64,000 nucleotides of DNA from an uncultured Cryomorphaceae bacterium (GTDB lineage: Bacteria; Bacteroidota; Bacteroidia; Flavobacteriales; Schleiferiaceae), in contig CAKZJV010000007.1 in the NCBI GenBank assembly GCA_937120475.1, positions 2,620,068-2,684,067 of the forward strand, in the 5' to 3' direction. The notes under the pieces are model-generated. The model was given only the letters and a program-made list of their open reading frames with translations, did not search any database and had not been told where the DNA came from. Below, in pieces: positions 35,279 to 40,437 of the stretch (the first letter of the stretch is position 1; each line of letters starts with the position of its first letter). The position numbers were made by a program, and so were the translations under genes.

Positions 35279-37201
35279 TTAAACCACCCGTCCCAGTTTT
35301 TTATTGATCTTAATGCGCAGGGTGGTTAGCCGGTTCAGCATTTGCATTTGTTGTTCCCTTTGTGCGTCATCATCCTGGTTAAATTTGCGCTGGGCTTCCT
35401 GTATAAGTTGAGCAATCTTCTTTTCCTTGAAACGCAACACAGACTCCTGCGTATAGGCCTTGATATAGGCATCCTTTTCGGGGATAAATATCTTGCGGCT
35501 GCTCCAGTTGTGAAGTTCGTACTTTTCACTAACCAGGTCCACCGCTACGCTGAGAAGTTCAGCATCTTCCTCTTTCAGGAAGTCCTCGGCCTTCAATATT
35601 TTTTCATCCCGGTCAAAAGCATCCACAAAATGTTGCAGTATTTTTTGAAAGGAGGGGTTTTCAAATTCCAGTTCATCACCGGCCAACTCAGTAATAATGT
35701 GTTCGGCCACACTTTCCTCTACTTCCTCTTCATCGGCTTCGAAGGTGTAAATGCGGTCGCCATAATTCAGAAGCAGCCAGCACAGGGCTTCTTCCTGCTT
35801 AAAGGTTTCGGATGAGGTGGGAATGGCACTTTGCTCTTCCTCAACCACCTCCATTTTGGGTGATTCCTCCCGCCTGCGATCCTGCTGTTCGCGCTTTTGC
35901 TTGCTCTTGCGGATTTGGGCCAGCTCGCTGAAAAGCACCTTTTCATCCATTTGCAGTACGCGTGCACACTCCTTCACATAGGCATCGCGCTGCAAGGCAT
36001 CCGGGATAAGGGCAATACTTTGTACGATCTCGCGGGCCGCTTTTGATTTTTCAAGGGGGTTGCTTCCGGCTTCATCCAGCAACAAGGAAGATTTAAACCG
36101 TAAAAAATCCTGTTTTTCCTCCTTAATGTAATCTTTCAACTCGGCTGAAGAAACCCTGCGGGCGTAGGAGTCCGGGTCTTCACCATCCGGAAAAAGCAGC
36201 ACCTGTACATTGAGTCCTTCCTCCAGTATCAGGTCAATACCGCGCAGGGAAGCTTTGATACCGGCCGGGTCGCCATCGTATAAAATGGTAACGTTTTGGG
36301 TGTAGCGTTTAATCAGGCTTACCTGCTCTACGGTAAGTGAAGTGCCCGATGAGGCCACGGCATTTTGCACCCCGGCCTGGTGTAAACTGATTACATCGGT
36401 GTAACCTTCCACCAGTAAACACTCATCTTCACGGCTTAAATGATTCTTAGCCTGGAACAACCCATAAAGGGTTTTGCTCTTGTGGTAAATCTCACTTTCC
36501 GGGCTGTTGAGGTATTTCGCAATTTTAGCGTCCTTTTTCAGAACGCGGCCACCAAAACCAAGCACCCGGCCGGTATGGCTCAGGATAGGAAAAATCACCC
36601 TCCCCCAGAAACGGTCGCGTTGACGATCGCCATCCACTTTGGTGAGCCCGGTTTTTTCCAGGAATTCCAGTTTGTAAGATTCTTTCAAGGCAGCCTGGGT
36701 AAGGGCGGTACCCGAATTGGGACAATAACCCAATTGGAAGTTACGGATGGTATCGTCCTCCATACCTCTTTCACGAAAATAAGAGAGCCCGATGCTCTTG
36801 CCTTCTTCGGTTTTCCATAGCTGTTGCTGGAAGAAAGTGTTGGCAAAATCATTGACCAGGAAGAGGCTTTCGCGCTCCGAGCGGAGCTCCTTCTCCTCAT
36901 CGGTTTGTCCGGTCTCCTCAATCTCAATGTTGTACTTTTTGGCCAGGTAGCGCAGAGCCTCGGGATAGGTATAGTGCTCGTGCTCCATCAGGAAACTCAC
37001 CACACTGCCGCCTTTGCCACTGCTGAAATCCTTGAAGATTTGCTTGGCGGGTGACACCATAAAGGAGGGTGTTTTTTCATTGGAAAAGGGACTGAGGCCC
37101 TTGTAATTGCTGCCCGATTTTTTAAGGGTCACAAAATCGCCAATCACCTCTTCAATGCGCGCAGCATCAAAAATCTTGTCTATGGTTTCACGTGAGATCA
37201 T
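35279..37201 (-). CDS. dnaG: DNA primase, with degenerate zinc ribbon
   Basis: The protein has 640 residues and makes RNA primers for replication. The N-terminal CHC2-type domain keeps the framework PFSNEKTPSFMVSPAKQ...SGKGG, but the four zinc ligands of E. coli DnaG (Cys, His, Cys, Cys) are replaced by S37, S40, D58 and S61. The catalytic core is intact: a TOPRIM domain with EGYTD and YDGDPAG motifs (about residues 265-320) and the basic RFWGRVIFP...GFGGR segment before it. The C-terminal 200 residues, which bind the helicase, are acidic and helical. It has its own TAGCTTTG promoter. Confidence 0.96.
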   Translation of the reverse strand: MISRETIDKIFDAARIEEVIGDFVTLKKSGSNYKGLSPFSNEKTPSFMVSPAKQIFKDFSSGKGGSVVSFLMEHEHYTYPEALRYLAKKYNIEIEETGQTDEEKELRSERESLFLVNDFANTFFQQQLWKTEEGKSIGLSYFRERGMEDDTIRNFQLGYCPNSGTALTQAALKESYKLEFLEKTGLTKVDGDRQRDRFWGRVIFPILSHTGRVLGFGGRVLKKDAKIAKYLNSPESEIYHKSKTLYGLFQAKNHLSREDECLLVEGYTDVISLHQAGVQNAVASSGTSLTVEQVSLIKRYTQNVTILYDGDPAGIKASLRGIDLILEEGLNVQVLLFPDGEDPDSYARRVSSAELKDYIKEEKQDFLRFKSSLLLDEAGSNPLEKSKAAREIVQSIALIPDALQRDAYVKECARVLQMDEKVLFSELAQIRKSKQKREQQDRRREESPKMEVVEEEQSAIPTSSETFKQEEALCWLLLNYGDRIYTFEADEEEVEESVAEHIITELAGDELEFENPSFQKILQHFVDAFDRDEKILKAEDFLKEEDAELLSVAVDLVSEKYELHNWSSRKIFIPEKDAYIKAYTQESVLRFKEKKIAQLIQEAQRKFNQDDDAQREQQMQMLNRLTTLRIKINKKLGRVV

Positions 37202-37248: not shown

Positions 37249-39093
37249 TTAAGCGTTGGCCGCTGCTTCGTTCACCGTTGATTCGTAAAGGCGGAAATAG
37301 AAGCGTGAGCCTCGGCCGATTTTACTCTCCAGGCCTATCTGACCTCCCATTTTCTGGATAAGCTCTTTGGATATGGAAAGTCCCAGGCCGGTTCCTTTCC
37401 CGCCTGAACCGGGAATACGGTAATACCGGTCGAAAATGCGTTTTTGATGTTCTTCGGAAATACCGGAGCCCTGGTCTTTTACGGAGAACTCGATGAACTC
37501 GGAATGATTGGAAACATTGATCTCCACCTGCGAATCCACCGGAGAATATTTAATGGAATTGGTGAGGAAGTTTACCAGTATCCAGGTTACCTTATCTTCA
37601 TCTACCAACAGGGTAGGCAGGTCTTCGGCCATATCCTTTTTAATGGTAATACCCCGGTCTTCGGCCAGGGTAATAACACTGTCAATGGCCTCTTCAACAA
37701 TGACCTCAGGTCGCACCTGCTCCAGGTTAAGCTTAATACTGCCCCCCTCCAACTCAGTGGCATTGAGCAGTTCCTGGGTAATGTTCAGCAGGCGGTTGGT
37801 TTCCCATTCTATGGATTCCACCATTTCCGTCTGTTCTTCTTCGAGCCGCCCCAACCGTTGATCTTTTAACAAACGAAGGCTCATTTTTATAGCCGAAATA
37901 GGTGTTTTCAATTCATGGCTTACCGTGGCTATAAAGTTGGTTTTAGCCTGATCCATCTCCTTAAATTCGGTGATATTCTTTAACATCAGGATGTAACCGT
38001 TCATCTCCTGATCCTCTTCGCTGGTAGCGTAGGTTATAATCACCTTTCGAATAAAATAGGCCGTCTTATTATCCAGGCTACCCTTTACCAGCTTGTTGCG
38101 GGTATAGCGTTTACTGCTACCCTGGGCCTCGATAAGGTCTTGAATTACATTTTGGAAAATGGGGTTTTGCAGGCTCAGGTCTTTGGCGGAAAGCCCCTTG
38201 ATTTTTTGCCGGGAAATACCCAGTAACTTTTTAGCGAAGGGGTTAATGAAAAGGATGTTGAAGTTGGCATCCAGCCCGATGATTCCCTCCGATATTTTCT
38301 GGATCATGGTTTCGATGCGCTTTTTCTCAGTCATCAGCTTGCTGAGATTGAGGCGCTCGAATTCATCCATTTTGGAGGCCATATCGTTAAAGGCTATACC
38401 CAACTTTCCGAATTCATCCTTGGAGTTGATGTTTACCCGGGCGGTATAATCGCCCTTGGCCATTTGATCGATGGCTTCCGAAAATTTATCCACGGGTTCA
38501 GCCACGTAAGCAGGGAAGCGCACCATAAAGGAAAAGGCAATTAGTATGCAGAATACAATAATTCCGGCCACGGTATAAATTACCCTTGAGGCCGTGGCTT
38601 CGGCCCTTTGGGTGCGGTAGTTTATAGTTTGCTCATTCAGCAGGTAAATCTGGCCGATATTGAGGGATATATCTTCCAGCAGGGGCAGAAGACGTTCAAA
38701 GTAATAGTCTTTGGTGCGTGTAACTGCGAGGTACTCCTTCAGGGCCTGAAACTCATTTTCTATTTCTTCCACCAACTGTATTTCACCCTCCTCAATACTG
38801 ATGGCCCGCTGCTTACGAAGGTTGTCTTCAAAACGAAGTATGGCCGACTCCAGTTTAAAATCCACCGTGTTGAGAGCAATCCTGGAGGTAGGATCGGGTT
38901 CGAAGGAATTGCGGATATCGCCCAGTGAGTTAAGTAGCTCATGGGTGTATTCCAGACTTTGGTAATTTTCCTTGAGCAGGTTCTGATTTTGGCTGGTAAG
39001 CAGGTTGAGGTAATGGATGGTAATAATGCCCAGTAGAACGATTACGGAGAACAGGAAAACCAGGCCCAGCGTTATTTTAGTTTTTACCTTCAT
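37249..39093 (-). CDS. Membrane sensor histidine kinase (HAMP-PAS-HisKA-HATPase)
   Basis: The protein has 614 residues. Helix 1 (8-27) and helix 2 (172-192) flank a periplasmic, mostly helical sensor of about 145 residues. A HAMP linker (about 193-250) and a PAS domain (about 262-375) follow. The phospho-acceptor is H393 in VSHELKTPIS. The ATP domain shows ILVNFLTNSIKYSP (N box), VKDQGSGIS (G1) and GTGLGLSI (G2). The layout recalls KinB/NtrB-like kinases. Its ATG directly follows the stop of the sigma-54 regulator gene, so the two form a pair. The signal sensed is unknown. Confidence 0.93.
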   Translation of the reverse strand: MKVKTKITLGLVFLFSVIVLLGIITIHYLNLLTSQNQNLLKENYQSLEYTHELLNSLGDIRNSFEPDPTSRIALNTVDFKLESAILRFEDNLRKQRAISIEEGEIQLVEEIENEFQALKEYLAVTRTKDYYFERLLPLLEDISLNIGQIYLLNEQTINYRTQRAEATASRVIYTVAGIIVFCILIAFSFMVRFPAYVAEPVDKFSEAIDQMAKGDYTARVNINSKDEFGKLGIAFNDMASKMDEFERLNLSKLMTEKKRIETMIQKISEGIIGLDANFNILFINPFAKKLLGISRQKIKGLSAKDLSLQNPIFQNVIQDLIEAQGSSKRYTRNKLVKGSLDNKTAYFIRKVIITYATSEEDQEMNGYILMLKNITEFKEMDQAKTNFIATVSHELKTPISAIKMSLRLLKDQRLGRLEEEQTEMVESIEWETNRLLNITQELLNATELEGGSIKLNLEQVRPEVIVEEAIDSVITLAEDRGITIKKDMAEDLPTLLVDEDKVTWILVNFLTNSIKYSPVDSQVEINVSNHSEFIEFSVKDQGSGISEEHQKRIFDRYYRIPGSGGKGTGLGLSISKELIQKMGGQIGLESKIGRGSRFYFRLYESTVNEAAANA

Positions 39094-40437
39094 TTATACC
39101 ACCAGCTCGTACTCTTCAATTTTACGATAAAGTGTAGTTAAACCAATACCTAATAGTTTGGCTGCTTCGGTTTTGTTGCCTTCGGTATGTTGTAATACAC
39201 GGTTAATGTGATACTTCTCAATATCGGAAAGCAGCATGGAACTGGTATGAAAGGCGGTACCGCCTGAAGCGTGGAAGGGCAGGTCGGCTTTGGTAAGCGT
39301 GCTGCCATCATTCACGATGAGTGCTCTCTCAATGACGTTCCTCAGTTCACGCACATTGCCTTTCCATTCATGGCTTTGTAAGGCTTCCATAAAAGAGTCG
39401 TCCATTTCGGGACGGTCACGCTTAAGCCGTACCGAAAAGTAGTCGATAAAATTATCGGCCAGTAAACGTATATCCCGGGGCCTTTCATTAAGGTTGGGCA
39501 GTGAAATGGTAAAGGTGCTCAGGCGGTAATAAAGGTCCAGCCGAAAGTTTCCTTTGTTTGCTTCCTCTTCAAGGTTGCGGTTGGTGGCGGCAATAATACG
39601 CACATCCACCTTGGTTTCGCGGGATTCGCCCACCTTTAAAAAGGTGCCATTCTCTAAAACCCGTAATAATTTGGATTGAAGGTCGGCATCCATTTCACCT
39701 ATTTCATCCAGGAAAATAGTACCTCCATCGGCCTCTTCAAAAAGTCCCTTTTTATCTTTGGTAGCACCGGTAAATGAACCGGCTTTATGCCCGAAAATTT
39801 CACTCTCCAGTATTTCACGGCTAAAAGCGGAGCAGTTTACCGCAATAAAACTCTCTTTACTCCTGCCACTGGACTGGTGAATGGCGTTGGCAAAAACTTC
39901 CTTACCGGTTCCGGTTTCACCAATCAACAGAACGGAGGTATCGGTAGCGGCTACTTTGGCACTGAGTTGTAGTGCCTGTTTCATGGCGGGGCTCTCGCCA
40001 ATAATGTTATCGAAACTGTGCCTTTGGTTTTGCTTGTTGAGGATGCGCTCCAACTTTTCGGCTTGCAAGGCCTTATCAATAGCCCTTTCTATTAAGGGTA
40101 TAATCTTGTCGTTGTCATCTCCTTTGGTGAGGTAATCAAAGGCACCGTCACGCATGGCCTGTACACCATCTTTTATAGTACCATAAGCGGTAAGCAGCAC
40201 AATTTCGGTAATCGAATGTTTGGCCTTGAATTCCGGAACAAAATCCACCCCGTTGCCATCGGGTAATTTTACATCGCACAGTACAAGGTGATACTGGTTT
40301 TGTTCCAGTTTTTTGCGGCCTTCGCTGAGGTTACCCGCTTCATCCACTTCATAACCTTCCAGGCTGATAATACGAAAGAGAAGTTTCCGCAGCTTTTCTT
40401 CATCGTCAATGATCAGTAATTTGCCTTTGCGAGCCAT
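39094..40437 (-). CDS. Sigma-54-dependent response regulator (NtrC family)
   Basis: The protein has 447 residues. Receiver domain: acidic pocket (IIDDEE), phospho-acceptor D55 (LCDVKLPDG) and a late Lys. The AAA+ domain has Walker A GETGTGKE, the sigma-54 loop as GSFTGA (Ala of the standard GAFTGA is Ser), Walker B GGTIFLDEIGEM, and an arginine-finger region LDLYYRLSTF. The C-terminal Fis-type HTH is EGNKTEAAKLLGIGLTTLYRKI. It activates sigma-54 promoters when phosphorylated by the kinase encoded next. mscS lies four bases upstream, so the three genes may be one operon. No target promoter with the -24/-12 pattern was identified here. Confidence 0.94.
   Translation of the reverse strand: MARKGKLLIIDDEEKLRKLLFRIISLEGYEVDEAGNLSEGRKKLEQNQYHLVLCDVKLPDGNGVDFVPEFKAKHSITEIVLLTAYGTIKDGVQAMRDGAFDYLTKGDDNDKIIPLIERAIDKALQAEKLERILNKQNQRHSFDNIIGESPAMKQALQLSAKVAATDTSVLLIGETGTGKEVFANAIHQSSGRSKESFIAVNCSAFSREILESEIFGHKAGSFTGATKDKKGLFEEADGGTIFLDEIGEMDADLQSKLLRVLENGTFLKVGESRETKVDVRIIAATNRNLEEEANKGNFRLDLYYRLSTFTISLPNLNERPRDIRLLADNFIDYFSVRLKRDRPEMDDSFMEALQSHEWKGNVRELRNVIERALIVNDGSTLTKADLPFHASGGTAFHTSSMLLSDIEKYHINRVLQHTEGNKTEAAKLLGIGLTTLYRKIEEYELVV

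Follow-up and report, generated by a model that had tools for sequence, protein, structure and literature searches.

The window analysed here is a stretch of 64,000 nucleotides from an uncultured Cryomorphaceae bacterium. On its minus strand lies dnaG, a complete open frame of 640 codons (35279-37201) for a DNA primase of 640 aa, which scores 428.8 bits against the NCBIfam dnaG equivalog TIGR01391 (curated cut-off 283.6). The Pfam domain set of a replicative primase is present on this strand: a CHC2 ribbon (PF01807, residues 3-96, 36914-37195), the N-terminal part of the catalytic core (PF08275, residues 123-252, 36446-36835), the TOPRIM catalytic part (PF13155, residues 263-346, 36164-36415) and the DnaB-binding region (PF10410, residues 380-420, 35942-36064). 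The motifs KYLNSPE at 229 and, within the TOPRIM part, EGYTD at 265 and DGDPAG at 309, which we take to be the DnaG catalytic motifs, are all intact. A PF01807 profile search of the host genome, which is 99.92% complete, gave the window dnaG as its only match (E 2.5e-29, no stops). The protein is probably the cell's ordinary replicative primase DnaG, predicted from its sequence and modelled fold to prime with a ribbon that contains no zinc and is independent of it. Upstream of dnaG on the same strand (37249-40437) are genes that match histidine kinase and sigma-54 response regulator families; for each gene, the 25 families listed all score under their curated cut-offs.

In bacterial DnaG this DNA-reading ribbon normally coordinates a zinc atom; here it has lost its ligands. 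The four columns that hold Cys-His-Cys-Cys in the CHC2 ribbon are occupied by S37, S40, D58 and S61, and residues 37-61 are encoded at 37093-37019 on the minus strand. Knuckle 1 (residues 37-40, 37082-37093) reads S-P-F-S instead of C-P-F-H, and knuckle 2 (residues 58-61, 37019-37030) reads D-F-S-S instead of C-F-G-C; Lys57 (37031-37033) adjoins knuckle 2. Alignments to the Aquifex primase 2au3, to E. coli DnaG and to zinc-bearing relatives all give the same four columns, so the replacement of all four ligands described in the earlier note is correct in both residues and coordinates. The four cysteines of the protein lie at 160, 261, 412 and 474, and the ribbon domain has none. The domain scores 98.5 bits against PF01807 (gathering score 24.9), and no other part of the protein is as well conserved. 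The window protein shares 94, 91 and 88% identity with its three closest named relatives in the ribbon, 89, 77 and 74% in the catalytic domain and 63, 42 and 44% in the C-terminal region. Identity in the ribbon exceeds that in the catalytic domain for the ten relatives compared (L085 included), for nine of them at every pair of values. This conservation bears out the earlier view that the domain has kept its frame and is not damaged, and argues against a decayed relic.

To describe the distribution of the zinc-less form, the ligand columns were read in three bacterial sets. Among the best 80 of 162 named relatives, the nearest of which is an Owenweeksia MAG at 81% identity, 60 lack the zinc site and 20 have Cys-His-Cys-Cys. 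Since 60 of 80 relatives share the loss and the ribbon is better conserved than the catalytic domain, the loss is more than chance. An even sample of the class yielded a primase match in 148 of 149 genomes; 116 of these primases have the zinc site, and the 32 without it fall in 15 of the 64 families. Four families are mixed, with zinc-less rows making up 1 of 4 in f4, 2 of 4 in f9, 4 of 5 in f69 and 3 of 4 in f89. A further phylum set of 109 loci, chosen rather than random (30 top-scoring, 29 taken for low score or family, 50 spread over families), has 84 with the zinc site and 25 without, the latter including families f17, f19, f30, f34 and f50 from outside the class as well as one f4 genus in which each of the four further genomes read is zinc-less. 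The class and named sets probably overlap in some genomes (for example L037 and L131, whose contigs have the same length). The PF01807 profile found no match in the nearly complete genomes G056 and G153, nor did a 120-residue query in the nearly complete genomes G426 and G366, for which an assembly gap or a divergent gene is possible. The earlier note had suggested that the substitution is lineage-wide and proposed checking the ligand columns across many Bacteroidota. On that check the loss is real, conserved and widespread, but a distribution over 15 of 64 class families and five others, on trees that need several changes, does not fit a trait of one lineage. Thus, the zinc-less ribbon is widespread but probably not the property of a single lineage.

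The zinc-less form also occurs in phages, as found in similarity searches of phage and plasmid sequences and in the five annotated phage records examined. Flavobacterium phages laban6-1 and 1H and Cellulophaga phage Ingeline_1, all Duneviridae, encode zinc-less primases. These resemble the window DnaG in having a zinc-less ribbon with the same code (SVDS, STDS and SVCS), and differ from host DnaG in being much longer, with annotated genes of 1065, 1186 and 1087 codons including the stop (record coordinates). In all three of these phages (L260, L261 and L262) the primase sits near a regulator gene. The Porphyromonas prophage that was read has an intact zinc site, as does an unverified faecal 'Bacteriophage sp.' record (H1) that may be bacterial DNA. 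A viral scan whose motifs favour the zinc-less form gave 65 loci, comprising 47 zinc-less, 14 Cys-His-Cys-Cys, two CHCS, one CCCC and one partial. The two CHCS loci, L381 and L382, are viral contigs with identical primase domains; their pattern is possibly a half-way state in which the last ligand alone is gone.

The replacement is stereotyped across families and phages. We pooled the zinc-less sequences, 167 in all (32 from the class sample, 60 from the named relatives, 25 from the further phylum set and 50 viral). They are not independent, as many are near relatives and three phages are counted twice, as annotated record and as viral contig of equal length. Position 37 is Ser and position 57 is Lys in all 167; position 58 holds either Asp (105) or Cys (62); position 60 is Ser in 164 and Ala in three; and position 61 is always Ser or Thr. 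The 32 class rows give the same picture (37, Ser 32; 58, Asp 20 and Cys 12; 60, Ser 29 and Ala 3; 61, Ser 24 and Thr 8), and among them position 40 is variable, being Thr, Ser, Lys, Val, Ala, Gly or His. The three f2 rows read all have a partly changed form that retains His40 (SHDT, SHDT and SHDS). Residues around the knuckles change with the zinc state as well. From zinc-bearing to zinc-less class rows, column 34 goes from mostly Leu or Ile to Lys or Trp, column 48 from Thr, Asn or Ser to Tyr, Met, Ala or Val, column 54 from Gly to Gln or Gly, and column 56 from Tyr to Phe.

We then asked whether this form had one origin or several, using trees of the primase from which the ribbon had been omitted. 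The 153-row tree requires 15 changes of zinc state, seven of them forced by well-supported branches, with warnings of long branches and odd composition in some zinc-less rows; removal of eight rows reduces the number to 11. A 48-row tree under a mixture model requires ten changes, four of them forced. A test on 19 rows rejects a single zinc-less clade, with a log-likelihood lower by 151 (p 1.5e-53), a value that overstates the case because the rows were picked after the first tree had been seen. Change counts give no direction, and we read the changes as losses because regain of four ligands seems implausible. The codons of Ser37 provide a separate line of evidence. AGY and TCY serine codons are each one step from the cysteine codons TGY. 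Every zinc-less row of f1, f2, f3, f8, f9, f69, f73 and f89 encodes Ser37 by AGY, and those of f4, f59, f93, f98 and f109 encode it by TCN, a split that favours separate origins.

One alternative is that the zinc-less ribbon arose once or a few times and spread by domain exchange, through recombination or phage-borne copies, rather than by repeated loss. Trees that omit the ribbon leave room for transfer of the ribbon itself, and the zinc-less form is found on many viral contigs. Families f7 and f62 each contain Ser37 codons of both kinds, as exchange could produce. The ribbon of L142, the zinc-less f4 row, has an identity of 0.71 to the best zinc-bearing f4 member and is closer to other families, both zinc-less (f69 and f1, 0.78) and zinc-bearing (f5, 0.75), although these values were computed on the columns left after removal of co-varying ones and do not decide between loss and exchange. 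However, the same f4 row retains V34 and T48, seen in no other of the 32 zinc-less class rows, and AGY in eight families as opposed to TCN in five speaks against one spreading ribbon. We therefore regard spread by exchange as rather doubtful, and repeated loss as the preferred reading.

The predicted structure suggests that the fold survives without the ligands. An AlphaFold2 model of residues 1-430 has block pLDDT values of 84-93 across residues 1-90, and 98 residues of its ribbon superpose at 1.4 Å (Z 16.9) on 1d0q_A, a zinc-binding domain of known structure; Foldseek gives 0.9 Å over 92 columns. AlphaFold2 takes no account of metals, and ten of the 33 rows in the alignment behind this model are zinc-bearing. 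A second model, built from zinc-less rows alone (37 rows, 110 aa), is poor, with a mean pLDDT of 63.9 and residues 34-47, including knuckle 1, under 50; it places a helix at 51-61, where the 1-430 model has a strand and knuckle 2, and lacks the ribbon fold. By prediction, then, the window ribbon keeps the zinc-ribbon fold, with the zinc-less-only model in disagreement. Compared with solved CHC2 DnaG structures (the 1d0q domain and Aquifex 2au3), the window DnaG shares the domain order, the catalytic motifs, the DnaB-binding region and the modelled ribbon fold. It differs in having no zinc ligands, in the stereotyped Ser, Asp and Ser/Thr at their positions, and in a core changed at 34, 48, 54, 56 and 60.

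We propose a model for how such a ribbon could be held together. The proposal starts from the general geometry of zinc knuckles, in which the first ligands, here at 37 and 58, would take up hydrogen bonds donated by backbone NH groups of their turns. Ser37 and Asp58, or a left-over Cys58, would keep these turn hydrogen bonds as ST- and Asx-turns, Ser60 and Ser/Thr61 would bridge the two knuckles, and the place of the metal would be taken by bulkier side chains at 48 and 56. Capping of the turns in place of metal fits the substitution pattern because positions 37 and 58 allow only hydrogen-bond acceptors (Ser; Asp or Cys), while position 40 varies. The best reading is that side-chain hydrogen bonds and packing, instead of zinc, would hold the ribbon.

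It is also conceivable that the ribbon still binds a metal by means of groups like D58, Ser/Thr hydroxyls and the nearby His74 and His76. Asp at 58 in 105 of the 167 zinc-less sequences would suit such a site, and in one alignment of 37 close relatives every row has His at both 74 and 76. Across the 32 zinc-less class rows, however, position 74 is His in only 19 and position 76 in 12, and no constant four-ligand set emerges, since 58 is split between Asp and Cys and 40 is variable. Because 95 of 116 zinc-bearing rows have His at 74 too, this residue is no replacement ligand, and the window ribbon contains no Cys; taken together, these observations make a substitute metal site quite improbable. 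A further view holds that the ribbon is an idle, decayed relic and that priming starts with low or no site specificity. The poor zinc-less-only model would agree with this, and a precedent is offered by Thermoanaerobacter TtDnaG2, which the parts consulted of its description (PMC5634424) present as an unusual DnaG-type primase with low initiation specificity and a domain modelled away from the active site. TtDnaG2 differs from the window protein, according to the same parts of that paper, in that it has a zinc-binding domain, lacks a DnaB-binding domain and is not the main primase of its host. A relic would drift, whereas this ribbon is the best conserved part of the protein and carries the same replacement pattern across families and phages. 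In addition, B. subtilis DnaG without this domain formed no stable template complex in gel shifts, as stated in the part of that study consulted (PMC5429622). We consider a relic improbable. Finally, the loss could belong to a general zinc thrift in these bacteria. Zinc-free replacements of zinc proteins are known among ribosomal proteins, which lends the idea some plausibility. PriA, the one other zinc protein tested, argues otherwise: it exceeds the zinc-ribbon family cut-off in 19 of 20 genomes, the single non-match being a zinc-bearing genome, and its Cys pairs are present in every one of the 19 stretches, of which zinc-less genomes, among them that of the window, account for 14. Since none of the 14 zinc-less genomes tested has lost the Cys pairs of PriA, there is no general avoidance of zinc ribbons, and zinc thrift is very unlikely. 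Hydrogen bonding and packing within a metal-free ribbon thus remain our preferred explanation.

What the ribbon reads can be approached through Lys57. In the portion consulted of a study of Clostridioides difficile primase (PMC5204125), the zinc-ribbon motif is called essential for primase function. A Lys next to this motif, which Aquifex shares and for which other bacteria have His, is described there as promoting a preference for CCC that relaxes when the Lys is mutated to His. By our own column equation, column 57 is taken to be that of C. difficile K70, with Lys in Aquifex, His in E. coli and Lys in the window. The class sample is uninformative on this residue because Lys occurs in both zinc states (it is also present in all 116 zinc-bearing class primases). 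In the further phylum set, 48 of the 84 zinc-bearing loci have Lys at this column, 28 have His and eight have Tyr, and neither His nor Tyr is found at 57 in any of the 167 zinc-less sequences. Lys57 may therefore be a precondition for zinc loss, or its retention may be mere inheritance. The earlier note had argued that a metal-free domain must read its start site in another way; with Lys57 kept throughout, this is unsupported, though a changed reading is conceivable. Use of the same reading surface without the metal is the simplest expectation, and since the window protein has Lys57, CCC-like initiation without zinc would be expected. Judging from Lys57 and its surroundings, most of which are kept, the metal-free ribbon would still cooperate with the RNA-polymerase domain in selecting start sites, which are probably CCC-like.

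The zinc-less ribbon appears to be an undescribed variant of a known enzyme. A search of titles and abstract openings in the open literature, with most subscription journals outside its scope, found no description of a zinc-less DnaG among the matches listed. A review, in the sections consulted, describes the three Cys and one His as highly conserved and the role of the zinc motif as unresolved (PMC6163395). Tentatively, and with more doubt than confidence, we suggest that zinc is dispensable for start-site choice and that, on a Lys57 background, the ribbon has a second stable, metal-free state with a fixed code (S37, K57, D/C58, S60, S/T61), which may have been reached repeatedly and presumably one-way, phages included. 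It is tempting to speculate that an agent attacking the zinc ribbon, or competing for it, drove the loss. The zinc-less primases of many families and phages offer natural test cases for what zinc does in this enzyme, through close relatives with and without it, and they bear on inhibitors aimed at the primase zinc motif. They also provide an example in which a structural metal is replaced in a stereotyped manner, probably more than once.
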